Source: Rhodospirillales bacterium
GTDB taxonomy: Bacteria; Pseudomonadota; Alphaproteobacteria; ATCC43930; CGMCC-115725
Direction of reading: 5' to 3'
Length of the DNA: 38,816 nucleotides
Assembly: GCA_028291405.1 (NCBI GenBank)
Contig: JAQGID010000243.1
Span: 1 to 38,816 of the forward strand
The first letter of the stretch is position 1, and each line of letters begins with the position of its first letter. Below the pieces are notes generated by a model. It worked only from the letters and a program-made list of their open reading frames with translations. It made no database searches and was not told the origin of the DNA. Below are positions 19,311-36,945 of the stretch, in pieces. The position numbers and the translations under genes were made by a program.

Positions 19311-20326
19311 GAGTGATCCCCCGCGGATCCGTCGCCGCGCCGGCTGCGGTCGCGCCGCTCGTAGGCCTGGACGATGCGGGCGACGAGCGGGTGGCGCACG
19401 ACGTCGCCCTCGCCGAACTCGACGATCCCGATCTCGGGAACGTCGCGCAGCGTATCGAGCGCGTCCTGCAGCCCGGAGCGCGTGCCGCGCGGCAGATCGA
19501 TTTGCGAGAGGTCGCCGGTCACCACCATCCTGGCGTTCTCGCCAAGCCGCGTCAGGAACATCTTCATCTGGACCGGTGTCGTATTCTGCGCCTCATCGAG
19601 GATGACATGGGCATTCGCGAGCGTCCTGCCACGCATAAAAGCCAGCGGCGCGACCTCGATCTCGCCGCCGGCCAGCCGCTTCTCGATCTGCTCGGCCGGG
19701 AGCATGTCGTAAAGCGCATCATAGAGCGGACGCAGGTAAGGGTCGACCTTCTCGCGCAGATCGCCGGGCAGGAAGCCGAGCCGCTCCCCCGCCTCGACGG
19801 CAGGACGCGACAGGATGATGCGCTCGACCGCGCCGCTCATCAGATTGTCGACCGCCGCCGCGACCGCGAGATAGGTCTTGCCGGTGCCCGCCGGTCCCAG
19901 GCCGAAGACCAGCTCGCGCTCGCGCAATGCACGGATATAGGCGGCCTGCGCCGCCGAGCGCGCCGTGATGCGCCGCTTGCGCGTCTGAATCGCGGCGCCC
20001 TCGTTCCACACCGGCTCGGCGGCGTCGCCGGCGTTCTCGGTCGCGAGCCGCAGCGCGGCGTCGACCGCCGGCGGGTCGACCTCCAGCCCCTGGTCGAGCC
20101 GATCGTACAGCGAGGTCAGCGCGGAGCAGGCAACCTCGGCGGCGGCCGCCGGGCCCGAGATCGCCAGCCGGTTGCCGCGCGACACCACCGAAACGCCGAG
20201 CTGGCGCTCGATCTGACCGAGGTGCTGATCGCGGTCGCCGTAGAGCAGCGGCAGCAGGCGATTCTCCTTGAAATGCATTTGCACCCGGCCCTGTCCCGCC
20301 GGCGCGCGGTCGCGTGACGTCGTCAC
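19307..20326 (-). CDS. ybeZ: PhoH-family ATPase (YbeZ)
   Basis: A PhoH-like P-loop NTPase linked to RNA metabolism with YbeY. Walker A is GPAGTGKT (144-151), Walker B is HVILDEAQNTTP, and an N-terminal KH-like segment covers about 20-60 (LGVSVVSRGNRLAISGP). I start at GTG 20326, 5 bases after the miaB stop (339 residues). ATG 20278 (MHFKENRLLP) is possible but would cut close to the conserved region. The order miaB-ybeZ-ybeY-ybeX-lnt is kept as in E. coli. Confidence 0.94.
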   Translation of the reverse strand: MTTSRDRAPAGQGRVQMHFKENRLLPLLYGDRDQHLGQIERQLGVSVVSRGNRLAISGPAAAAEVACSALTSLYDRLDQGLEVDPPAVDAALRLATENAGDAAEPVWNEGAAIQTRKRRITARSAAQAAYIRALRERELVFGLGPAGTGKTYLAVAAAVDNLMSGAVERIILSRPAVEAGERLGFLPGDLREKVDPYLRPLYDALYDMLPAEQIEKRLAGGEIEVAPLAFMRGRTLANAHVILDEAQNTTPVQMKMFLTRLGENARMVVTGDLSQIDLPRGTRSGLQDALDTLRDVPEIGIVEFGEGDVVRHPLVARIVQAYERRDRSRRGDGSAGDHS

Positions 20327-33851: not shown

Positions 33852-33884
33852 CAGCGGACCGCGCCACGGTGGCGCGGTCCGCTG
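33852..33884. terminator. Perfect 16-bp-arm hairpin between nth and bactofilin gene
   Basis: CAGCGGACCGCGCCAC (33852-33867) and its exact complement (33869-33884) flank a single G. It fills half of the 69-base gap between two convergent genes, so a two-way terminator is likely, although no T-run follows on either strand. Confidence 0.6.
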
Positions 33885-34547: not shown

Positions 34548-35234
34548 TTAGACTGTAATTGGCGTGCCCCGGTACCGCTCCCGGAGGCCTTCGAACAAAT
34601 GCAGCATGAAGAGTGCTGCGATCAGCGGCGCCGCGAGATTGAGCAGGGGCACCGTCAGCAGGAACGCGATCACCATCCCGCCGAGAACGAGGCGCAGCCA
34701 TTCGGCGCGCCACAGATTGCGGCGTTGCCGCTGATCGAGCCGGCGCAGCGCGACCAACTCGAAATACTCGCGGCCCAGCAGCCAGCCGTTGATCGCGTAG
34801 AACAACACGAGGTTGAGCCCCGGGACAAGCAAGTAAAGCGGCAGCGCCACGAGGTTCAGGACGATCGCCAGCCCCGCCAGCCGCAGCCCGCCGCCGACGA
34901 TCTCGGCAATCGACTGGCGGCGCGCCGGCGGCAGGCCGGGATGACGCCGCGCCTCGCTCGCCGAGATGACCCCGTCCAGGAAGAAGCCGAGCACGAAGGT
35001 CGCGACGGCGGGAAAGAGCAGCCAGGTCAGCCCGAGGATCGCGATGCCGCCGAGCAGCTCGATGGCACGGTTGAAGAACCAGCCCGCGAAGAACTGCGTG
35101 TGATCGAGGATCAGCATCATCGCCGAGCCGAGAGCAACGAAGACGATCGCCGTCAAAAGCAGGCTCACGGCCAAGGTGCGCCGGAACCGCGGATCGAAGG
35201 TCTCGGAAAGCGCGAGCAGAAAGGCTGAAACCAT
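34548..35234 (-). CDS. CysZ/EI24-domain membrane protein
   Basis: A 228-residue polytopic membrane protein of the EI24/CysZ type. Hydrophobic segments lie at about 20-45, 60-90, 115-145 and 185-212. A conserved-looking core is NLVALPLYLLVPGLNLVLFYAINGWLLGREYFE, split by the second-last span. Relatives include the sulfate permease CysZ, but many members have no known substrate and no cys gene is adjacent here. It probably forms an operon with the bactofilin gene. Confidence 0.82.
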   Translation of the reverse strand: MVSAFLLALSETFDPRFRRTLAVSLLLTAIVFVALGSAMMLILDHTQFFAGWFFNRAIELLGGIAILGLTWLLFPAVATFVLGFFLDGVISASEARRHPGLPPARRQSIAEIVGGGLRLAGLAIVLNLVALPLYLLVPGLNLVLFYAINGWLLGREYFELVALRRLDQRQRRNLWRAEWLRLVLGGMVIAFLLTVPLLNLAAPLIAALFMLHLFEGLRERYRGTPITV

Positions 35235-35500
35235 CGCGTCTGCCGAATACGCTGCGGAAGATTACCGTTGCAACACGTAACGCAGTCGTCACGAGGCGGC
35301 CAGCGAATTCGTGCCGGCCGCGAGAGTCAAAAAAGGGGTGCACAGCGACATCTGACCCGATCGGGTGAGGCGATCGTTGCGGGCGCGATACGGCCGACGG
35401 TCAGGACCTGGGGGCTGCAGCGGCGGCCTGCACTCCGTGAGCGTCGGCAGCGAACATTTTCAATTCGGAACTTTTCGACGCCGATCGAGCGCGATTTTGC

Positions 35501-35530
35501 TTGCATTTAGGTCCAATCAGGACCTACTAT
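35501..35530 (+). promoter_or_regulatory. Orphan promoter with operator between -35 and -10
   Basis: TTGCAT (35501-35506) and TACTAT (35525-35530) are 18 bases apart. The spacer holds the perfect inverted repeat TAGGTCC-AATCA-GGACCTA (35508-35526), a classic place for a repressor or MerR-like site. No recognised gene follows within 400 bases in this direction. Confidence 0.5.
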
Positions 35531-35589
35531 GTCCATTTTACGCTAGTGAGAACGACAAATGGATGGTTTGATAAAGGCGACGCGCAGGG

Positions 35590-35624
35590 GCAGTACGGAT
35601 CGGGCCGGGCCCGATCCGTACTGC
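35590..35624 (+). repeat. Perfect 35-bp palindrome (17-bp arms, 1-base centre)
   Basis: GCAGTACGGATCGGGCC (35590-35606) and its exact complement (35608-35624) flank a single G. It lies about 55 bases after the start site predicted from the promoter at 35501 and is followed by ATTTGG. It may end a short RNA, although the T-run is weak. Confidence 0.7.
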
Positions 35625-35628
35625 ATTT

Positions 35629-35646
35629 GGCCTGCAAATTCAGGCC
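35629..35646. other. Small hairpin after the long palindrome
   Basis: GGCCTG and CAGGCC arms surround a 6-base loop CAAATT, 4 bases past the 35-bp palindrome. Confidence 0.4.
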
Positions 35647-35714
35647 GGGCGAGCGGTCGGCGGAAGCCGTCGGGCGCCGGAGGAACCGCCGCGGCCAACC
35701 GCGGCGTTGCCTGC

Positions 35715-35740
35715 ATCCGGCCTGTAATTACAGGACGGAT
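35715..35740. other. 26-bp palindrome
   Basis: A perfect 14-bp core CCTGTAATTACAGG (35721-35734) is extended by ATCCG and CGGAT after a single G/A mismatch. It could be a dimeric regulator site. It lies about 150 bases upstream of the promoter of the kinase gene. Confidence 0.55.
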
Positions 35741-35886: not shown

Positions 35887-35914
35887 TTGCCCTCGGCGGA
35901 AAGCTTTCTATACT
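35887..35914 (+). promoter_or_regulatory. Promoter of the adenosine-kinase-like gene
   Basis: TTGCCC (35887-35892) and TATACT (35909-35914) with 16-base spacing place transcription start near 35921, about 32 bases before the ATG at 35953. Confidence 0.55.
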
Positions 35915-35952: not shown

Positions 35953-36945
35953 ATGACGGCAGCCACCATTGACGTCGTCGGCATCGGCAATGCGATCGTC
36001 GACGTGATCGCGCATTCCGATGATGCGTTTCTCGCGCAGCAGGGCCTCAACAAGGGCGGGATGGCGCTGGTCGACACCGCACGCGCCGAGGCGCTCTACG
36101 CCGTGATGGGACCGGGGATCGAGGCTTCGGGCGGCTCGGCCGGCAACACGATGGCGGGAATCGCCTCGCTCGGCGGCACCGGCGCCTATATCGGCAAGGT
36201 CCGCAACGACGAGCTCGGCGACGTCTTCCGCCACGACATGACGGCGATCGGTGTTCGCTTCACGACGGCGCCCGCGATGAGCGGCCCGCCGACGGCGCGC
36301 TGCCTCATCCTGGTGACGCCGGACGCGCAGCGCACCATGAACACCTTCCTCGGCGCCTGCGTCGATCTCGGGCCCGAGGACGTCGATGCCGAGCTGATCG
36401 CCGCGGCGCAGGTGACCTATCTCGAAGGCTATCTCTTCGATCCGCCGCGCGCCAAGGAGGCCTTCCGCAAGGCCGCGAAACTCGCCCACGACGCCGGGCG
36501 CCGCGTCTCGCTCAGCCTCTCCGACCCGTTCTGCGTCGGCCGCTATCGCGCCGAGTTCCGCGATCTCGTCGCCAACCACGTCGACGTGCTGTTCGCGAAC
36601 GAATCCGAGATCTGCTCGCTCTACGAGACCGATTTCGACGCCGCGCTGGCGCAGGTCCGCGGCCATTGCGACATCGCCGCGCTGACGCGCAGCGAGAAGG
36701 GCTCGGTTGTCGTGACGCGCGATCATACCCATGTTATCGATGCGGCGCGGGTCGACAAGGTCGTCGACACCACCGGCGCGGGCGATCTCTACGCGAGCGG
36801 CTTTCTCTTCGGACTTACCCACGGTCACGATCTTCCGACCTGCGGCAAGCTCGGCAGCCTCTGCGCCGCGGAAGCGATCAACCATTTTGGTGCGCGGCCG
36901 GAAACGCCGCTCAAGACTCTCGCTGCCAAAGCCGGCCTCCTCTGA
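35953..36945 (+). CDS. PfkB-family carbohydrate kinase, adenosine kinase-like
   Basis: A 330-residue ribokinase-fold enzyme. The first PfkB signature is SGGSAGNTMAGIASLGG (near 58-74) and the second is DTTGAGDLYASGFLFG, with the catalytic Asp in GAGD. The start DVVGIGNAIVDVI and the middle TFLGAC...EGYLFD resemble the alphaproteobacterial adenosine kinase group, but the substrate (adenosine or a sugar) cannot be fixed from sequence alone. The ATG at 35953 follows AGGA at 6 to 8 bases and matches the promoter at 35887-35914. A terminator overlaps its last codons. Confidence 0.88.
   Translation: MTAATIDVVGIGNAIVDVIAHSDDAFLAQQGLNKGGMALVDTARAEALYAVMGPGIEASGGSAGNTMAGIASLGGTGAYIGKVRNDELGDVFRHDMTAIGVRFTTAPAMSGPPTARCLILVTPDAQRTMNTFLGACVDLGPEDVDAELIAAAQVTYLEGYLFDPPRAKEAFRKAAKLAHDAGRRVSLSLSDPFCVGRYRAEFRDLVANHVDVLFANESEICSLYETDFDAALAQVRGHCDIAALTRSEKGSVVVTRDHTHVIDAARVDKVVDTTGAGDLYASGFLFGLTHGHDLPTCGKLGSLCAAEAINHFGARPETPLKTLAAKAGLL

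Follow-up and report, generated by a model that had tools for sequence, protein, structure and literature searches.

A promoter that runs into a perfect hairpin in a Rhodospirillales genome is very probably the remnant of a multi-copy DUF5681 gene

An intergenic promoter that leads into a perfect hairpin, with no gene in between, raises the question of whether it serves a small RNA or is left over from something else. Such a stretch occurs in the window, by which is meant the whole 38,816 nucleotides of DNA analysed, on one contig (C286) of a 6.48-Mb draft Rhodospirillales genome in 461 contigs. The plasmids that the window matches best are alphaproteobacterial. The first-pass annotation had offered both answers, a small RNA with its own regulator or control DNA left behind by a lost gene. 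The second is the one supported, and the lost gene can be named as one encoding DUF5681 (PF18932) from its promoter/start profile, its tail repeats, and their order and spacing. Positions 35501-35734 are very probably the remnant of a multi-copy DUF5681 gene with the core deleted, the hairpin at the junction having perhaps arisen by a fold-back during copying. The features of the locus and its neighbours are as follows.

34548-35234, minus strand: EI24/CysZ-family gene, the divergent neighbour (Pfam PF07264, E = 1.2e-24)
35501-35506, plus strand: -35 element TTGCAT of the predicted surviving DUF5681-gene promoter
35508-35526, plus strand: 7-5-7 palindrome TAGGTCC-AATCA-GGACCTA, complete only in the window copy
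35521-35533, plus strand: dyad over the -10 box, GACCTA-C-TATGTC, 5 of 6 pairs (sister-promoter form GACATA-N-TATGTC)
35525-35530, plus strand: -10 element TACTAT
35559-35610, plus strand: predicted start codon with about 17 codons that remain of a DUF5681 gene (MDGLIKATRRGSTDRAG), from profile matches and identity to the C78 N-terminus
35590-35624, no strand assigned: perfect 17-1-17 hairpin at the predicted deletion junction, the left arm being surviving codons and the right arm an inverted copy
35620-35644, plus strand: first tail repeat (CCTGYA...CCTG......CAGG), with A as its first base
35710-35734, plus strand: second tail repeat, from a leave-out profile
35887-35914, plus strand: pfkB-family gene promoter TTGCCC-16-TATACT, independent of the remnant
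35953-36945, plus strand: PfkB-family kinase gene, the other neighbour (Pfam PF00294, E = 7.3e-45)

The elements first described are all present in the DNA. The two promoter boxes can be read directly with an 18-nt spacer between them, the 7-5-7 repeat is perfect and has its last two bases inside the -10 box, the hairpin has 17-bp arms at 35590-35606 and 35608-35624 around a 1-nt loop, and the AT-richness claimed for the promoter region is evident from the G+C content, which is 0.68 over the whole window, 0.42 in 35500-35549 and 0.36 in 35525-35574. These elements lie in a 718-bp gap between the EI24/CysZ-family gene and the pfkB-family gene. The protein encoded by the latter was found in 36 of 41 genomes, from which 30 loci were taken; ten of these besides the window's have an EI24 match, and in the nine for which the gap was compared, as measured from the match ends, it is 71-253 bp long and, inspected by eye, contains no promoter-hairpin stretch. 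The gap in the window is a local expansion. When 61 genomes were searched with the DNA of the whole gap, the matches were the gap itself, the hairpin on the opposite strand and, in four other genomes, five segments 25-51 bases long that cover neither the promoter nor the hairpin. Conservation of the two elements in relatives, which had been proposed as a check, is thus absent from the gaps of nine relatives and, at the level of DNA similarity, from 60 other genomes.

The identity of the lost gene emerges from a 25-bp repeat that overlaps the hairpin by five bases and has a second copy beginning 90 bp on. A tight pattern for this repeat has 53 matches in the genome against none for the reversed control, and both copies in the window are recognised by a profile of 54 others (E = 1.1e-6 for the first and 9.5e-8 for the second). 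The inner palindrome of the repeat is also enriched (72 matches against 22 for the control); a loose form of the pattern allowing three mismatches is not (338 against 340). Across 41 genomes, the tight pattern has 14 matches in G003, four in G022, one in G017 and none in the other 37, which include a member of the same genus (G001). The repeat, CCTGYA-NNNCG-CCTGY-NNNN-CAGG, forms arrays of two or three copies in the tails and remnants of DUF5681 genes and is also found singly at other places (for example, L175 1002-1178, L177 897-1143, L154 1501, and L162 1501 on the reverse strand). The motif GCCTAAA, which occurs six times in total on both strands of 439 kb of the genome, follows 10 of 58 repeat copies at no more than 120 nt, one occurrence being common to two copies (for example, L167 1550 and, on the reverse strand, L129 1530), and is possibly the end of a longer unit. 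As the one candidate for a mobile-element end that was looked for at both ends of units, it was found downstream of three of 12 units other than the window's and upstream of none, and this reading was rejected.

When the DNA preceding 12 repeat loci was compared, three of them (C321, C143, C56) proved to carry a promoter that aligns with that of the window, and a promoter pattern drawn by eye from these three and the window itself has nine matches in the genome, the window included, versus none for the reversed control. Eight of the nine are followed on the same strand by the 25-bp repeat (in a degenerate form at C356), and the ninth, C78, lies at the head of an open DUF5681 frame that starts MDGSVWVEGRAGRDRGGRFVAGVSGNPAGKRKG and runs off its contig. 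The genome has 11 matches to PF18932, of which ten, C78 among them, exceed the cut-off; any match to this family was found in 15 of 41 genomes. The repeats, and not the promoter pattern, led to long frames at C393, C296 and C5, whose 5' regions were anchored by eye; these frames contain PF18932, and the 25-bp repeats lie within them as C-terminal tails. At the C5 locus (L182, around 360-470), the domain is read in a different frame from the usual MDG start; the copy may therefore be damaged and was taken for DNA comparison only. As to the family itself, the only PHROGs match of the DUF5681 gene is phrog_4114, a family of unknown function; the accessible parts of the literature mention DUF5681 by name for one protein of a Salmonella phage; and a pattern for named relatives of the gene fitted 54 stretches, of which tblastn confirmed none.

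The window shares with the open DUF5681 genes (C78, C393, C296, C5) a related promoter block, a leader with a start of the ATGGA(C/T)GG type, and N-terminal codons, and with C393, C296 and C5 also the tail repeats in the same orientation; it differs from them in having lost the domain-coding core and in having a perfect hairpin at the junction. The distance from the promoter to the first repeat is 522, 611 and 668 nt in the C393, C296 and C5 genes, compared to 109 nt in the window and 74-315 nt in eight sister remnants (C143, C321, C56, C76, C204, C356, C406, C149), which like the window have a promoter before a tail repeat and no DUF5681 match, and which differ from it in the length and sequence of the junction. 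No match to PF18932 was found at the nine remnant sites, that of the window included, and two open reading frames tested in the window had no Pfam match.

Homology of the 5' end was assessed with profiles. A profile of the 5' regions of C393, C296 and C5, comprising promoter, leader, start and first codons, aligns with 35498-35610 of the window at E = 9.8e-5 in 439 kb of the genome, ranking it fourth after C5 itself, the newly found unit C149 and C321, with the next match at E = 2. Addition of C78 to the profile improved the match to E = 2e-5, and with addition of the divergent G001 sequence the window was not among the eight matches listed. A leave-one-out profile of 12 copies, which includes copies found by the pattern partly built from the window, gave the window E = 1.6e-7 and the next match 0.052. 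The promoter alone is less informative: with a 40-nt promoter-only profile from which the window was left out, the window scored E = 0.47, level with noise, and on 30 DUF5681 loci (84 kb, four of them from this genome) the promoter-only profile had one match (E = 0.0014), in G001, located just before its DUF5681 gene. The start ATG that would survive in the window is at 35559, and the 17-residue peptide that follows from it has seven of 17 residues identical to the C78 N-terminus without gaps, a score reached in 33 of 5000 shuffles; its resemblance to three other N-termini is not significant (1993, 1208 and 490 of 5000 shuffles). The reading as a remnant is supported by homology, order, orientation and spacing together. 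According to this reading, a DUF5681 gene that had inserted or arisen ahead of pfkB would later have been stripped of its core. Its 5' end would remain as the promoter, the leader, the start codon and some 17 codons, and its 3' end as two repeats of the C-terminal tail; with no intact copy known at this site, the order of events is a reconstruction.

The hairpin would then be a product of the deletion. Alignments with the 5'-region profiles cover the window from the promoter to the left arm and end at 35610-35613, three to six bases into the right arm, so that, in the simplest view, the left arm belongs to the old gene and the right arm does not. The last bases of the right arm are ACTGC. Of the 31 tail repeats of the CCTGC class, 30 open with CCTGC and only that of the window departs from this; the odd leading A of the window's first repeat is the base of the hairpin arm, as backward copying of the left arm would supply. 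A copying strand may have folded back on the last surviving codons of the DUF5681 copy, copied 17 bases in reverse to form the right arm, and resumed at the CTGC that opens the tail repeat and is shared with the right arm. Formation of the hairpin by such a fold-back template switch is deduced from one junction. Template-switch hairpins described in the literature (PMC8794818, in the accessible part of its text) likewise have a perfect stem made by one copying event, and they concern RNA sequences, whereas the event in the window is reconstructed from a single DNA junction.

Other origins of the hairpin are conceivable, because a sample of 439 kb of the genome, consisting of the window and 20 chosen rather than random 20-kb stretches of large contigs, contains three other perfect hairpins with arms of at least 15 bases and loops of 0-2 nt (four with the junction hairpin); their arms are 15, 16 and 17 bases long, and the hairpin need not stem from the deletion. 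At four in 439 kb, hairpins of this kind are rare. One of the three is in the window itself (33852-33884, 16-1-16), between convergent endonuclease III-like and bactofilin genes, with no T-run. The arm of the junction hairpin is not enriched elsewhere in the genome (33 matches with up to three mismatches versus 62 for the reversed pattern). In the corresponding stretch of the eight sister remnants, no hairpin has an arm longer than 12: from promoter to first repeat, six have no perfect hairpin of at least six pairs, C204 has one of eight pairs and C149 one of 12 pairs. The C149 remnant (L232, reverse strand, approximately 19690-19780) and the C204 remnant (L278) contain another kind of hairpin element, whose arms lie around CCCGG...CCGGG.

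The inverted repeat in the promoter had been likened to a repressor site. As a sequence it is present, but it is complete in the window copy only: the other 12 of 13 aligned promoters (the window, 11 others from this genome and one from G001) pair at two to five of the seven positions. At this spacing, a perfect 7-5-7 repeat occurs at approximately 0.04% of positions in the window, so the palindrome by itself is not rare, and a search of the genome for the palindrome with up to three mismatches found no enrichment (28 matches versus 83 for the reversed pattern). Seven of the 12 other promoters pair at four or five of seven positions, above a background of 12% of window positions with at least four, so a partial form, as a weak trace, may be older. 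The spacing between the boxes is 18 in the window versus 17 in nine of the 12 others; according to the alignment, one additional base between the -35 box and the aligned core makes the spacer 18 nt long and contributes to completing the palindrome. The boxes themselves are shared, with TTG within one base of the window's -35 position in 12 of 13 promoters and TANNAT at the -10 position in 11 of 13. The -35 element of the window agrees with TTGACA at only three of six bases, and a scan for the sigma-70 consensus lists the pfkB promoter and not this one. The 6-1-6 dyad over the -10 box pairs at five or six of six positions in eight of 13 promoters, the window included, compared to 1.2% of window positions. 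The copies being related, sharing of either symmetry is no proof of selection. The -10 dyad appears to be a better operator candidate than the 7-5-7 repeat, and suggests that the DUF5681 family may have been, or may still be, under the control of a repressor.

Wider searches for the palindrome gave candidates that were set aside. Together with its -10 context, allowing two mismatches, it has ten matches in seven of 385 genomes of the class versus 11 for the reversed control, and was rejected as a conserved operator; an exact search of genome contigs with the same context found no match. The bare palindrome matches exactly at least 80 stretches in viral contigs, most of which share one recurrent phage flank unlike that of the window, and these were treated as unrelated. 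Many phage contigs (most of L036-L115) contain the form TAGGTCC-ACSGT-GGACCTA between flanks that hardly vary. Separately, palindromes close to TAGGTCC-N5-GGACCTA precede genes in three different families (L246, L249, L250, each near 1501), where they are possibly a conserved operator; the genes that follow are presumably glutamate synthase small subunit genes.

A small RNA gene, in which a regulated promoter would make a structured RNA of about 90 nt, or about 200 nt with the repeats, could draw on the survival of promoter-like elements, on the promoter and repeats common to nine loci of the genome including the window, and on a 224-nt stretch that folds far better than shuffled sequences (z = -5.3, 0 of 200 shuffles). 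The largest stem of that predicted fold, however, is the hairpin, which is seen nowhere else, with no similar one in the eight sister remnants, and the sequences between promoter and repeat differ among loci. The hairpin is not followed by the T-run of an intrinsic terminator, having ATTTGGCC instead, and the terminator scan does not list one. At gathering score, no Rfam family has a match in the window; the stretch is missing from the gaps of nine relatives and from 60 other genomes searched by DNA similarity; and its parts are accounted for by the two ends of a protein-coding gene. The small RNA with its own regulator that was initially proposed has little in its favour and is judged improbable. 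The chances are somewhat greater, yet still low, that the core-less copies have become short, jointly regulated RNAs (or protein-free miniature elements) derived from DUF5681 genes, as the promoter and tail hairpins kept at nine loci could indicate; the keeping of both ends may only reflect which remnants a search based on ends can find.

Two further explanations are less likely again. Transcripts from 35537 could extend 416 nt into pfkB as a long regulated leader attenuated by the hairpin, which would fit the shared strand and the position of other repeat arrays before co-directional genes (TPP enzyme, threonine synthase, glycyl-tRNA synthetase alpha, class II tRNA synthetase, amidohydrolase). 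Yet the repeat array of C5 faces a convergent gene, and pfkB has its own promoter, of which nine relatives lacking the whole stretch retain a like -10 box (TATACT in eight, AATACT in one). The least likely is that a short palindromic mobile element of REP/BIME or MITE type lies beside an unrelated promoter. The 25-bp repeat is dispersed, in numbers far above its control, and resembles REP elements and their associated tyrosine transposases in being a short dispersed palindrome, as far as the accessible parts of the sources go (PMC2817692, PMC3116915); against this, promoter and repeat recur jointly in one order, the repeats also lie inside DUF5681 reading frames, and a Y1 transposase (PF01797) was found in none of six genomes by a search that was positive in five of 14 control genomes. 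The assemblies are drafts, so this absence is not absolute; it was nonetheless taken to rule against a REP/RAYT origin of the repeat.

The remnant of a DUF5681 gene thus remains the preferred reading, and the locus is probably genetic debris without a small-RNA gene; its promoter may still fire, and the product would probably be without function. What appeared to be a regulated small-RNA locus becomes an explained gene remnant. Deletion junctions could give rise to perfect hairpins beside real promoters, and these would be a trap for small-RNA prediction. The analysis also brings to light a multi-copy DUF5681 family in this genome, with a common promoter and many truncated copies.
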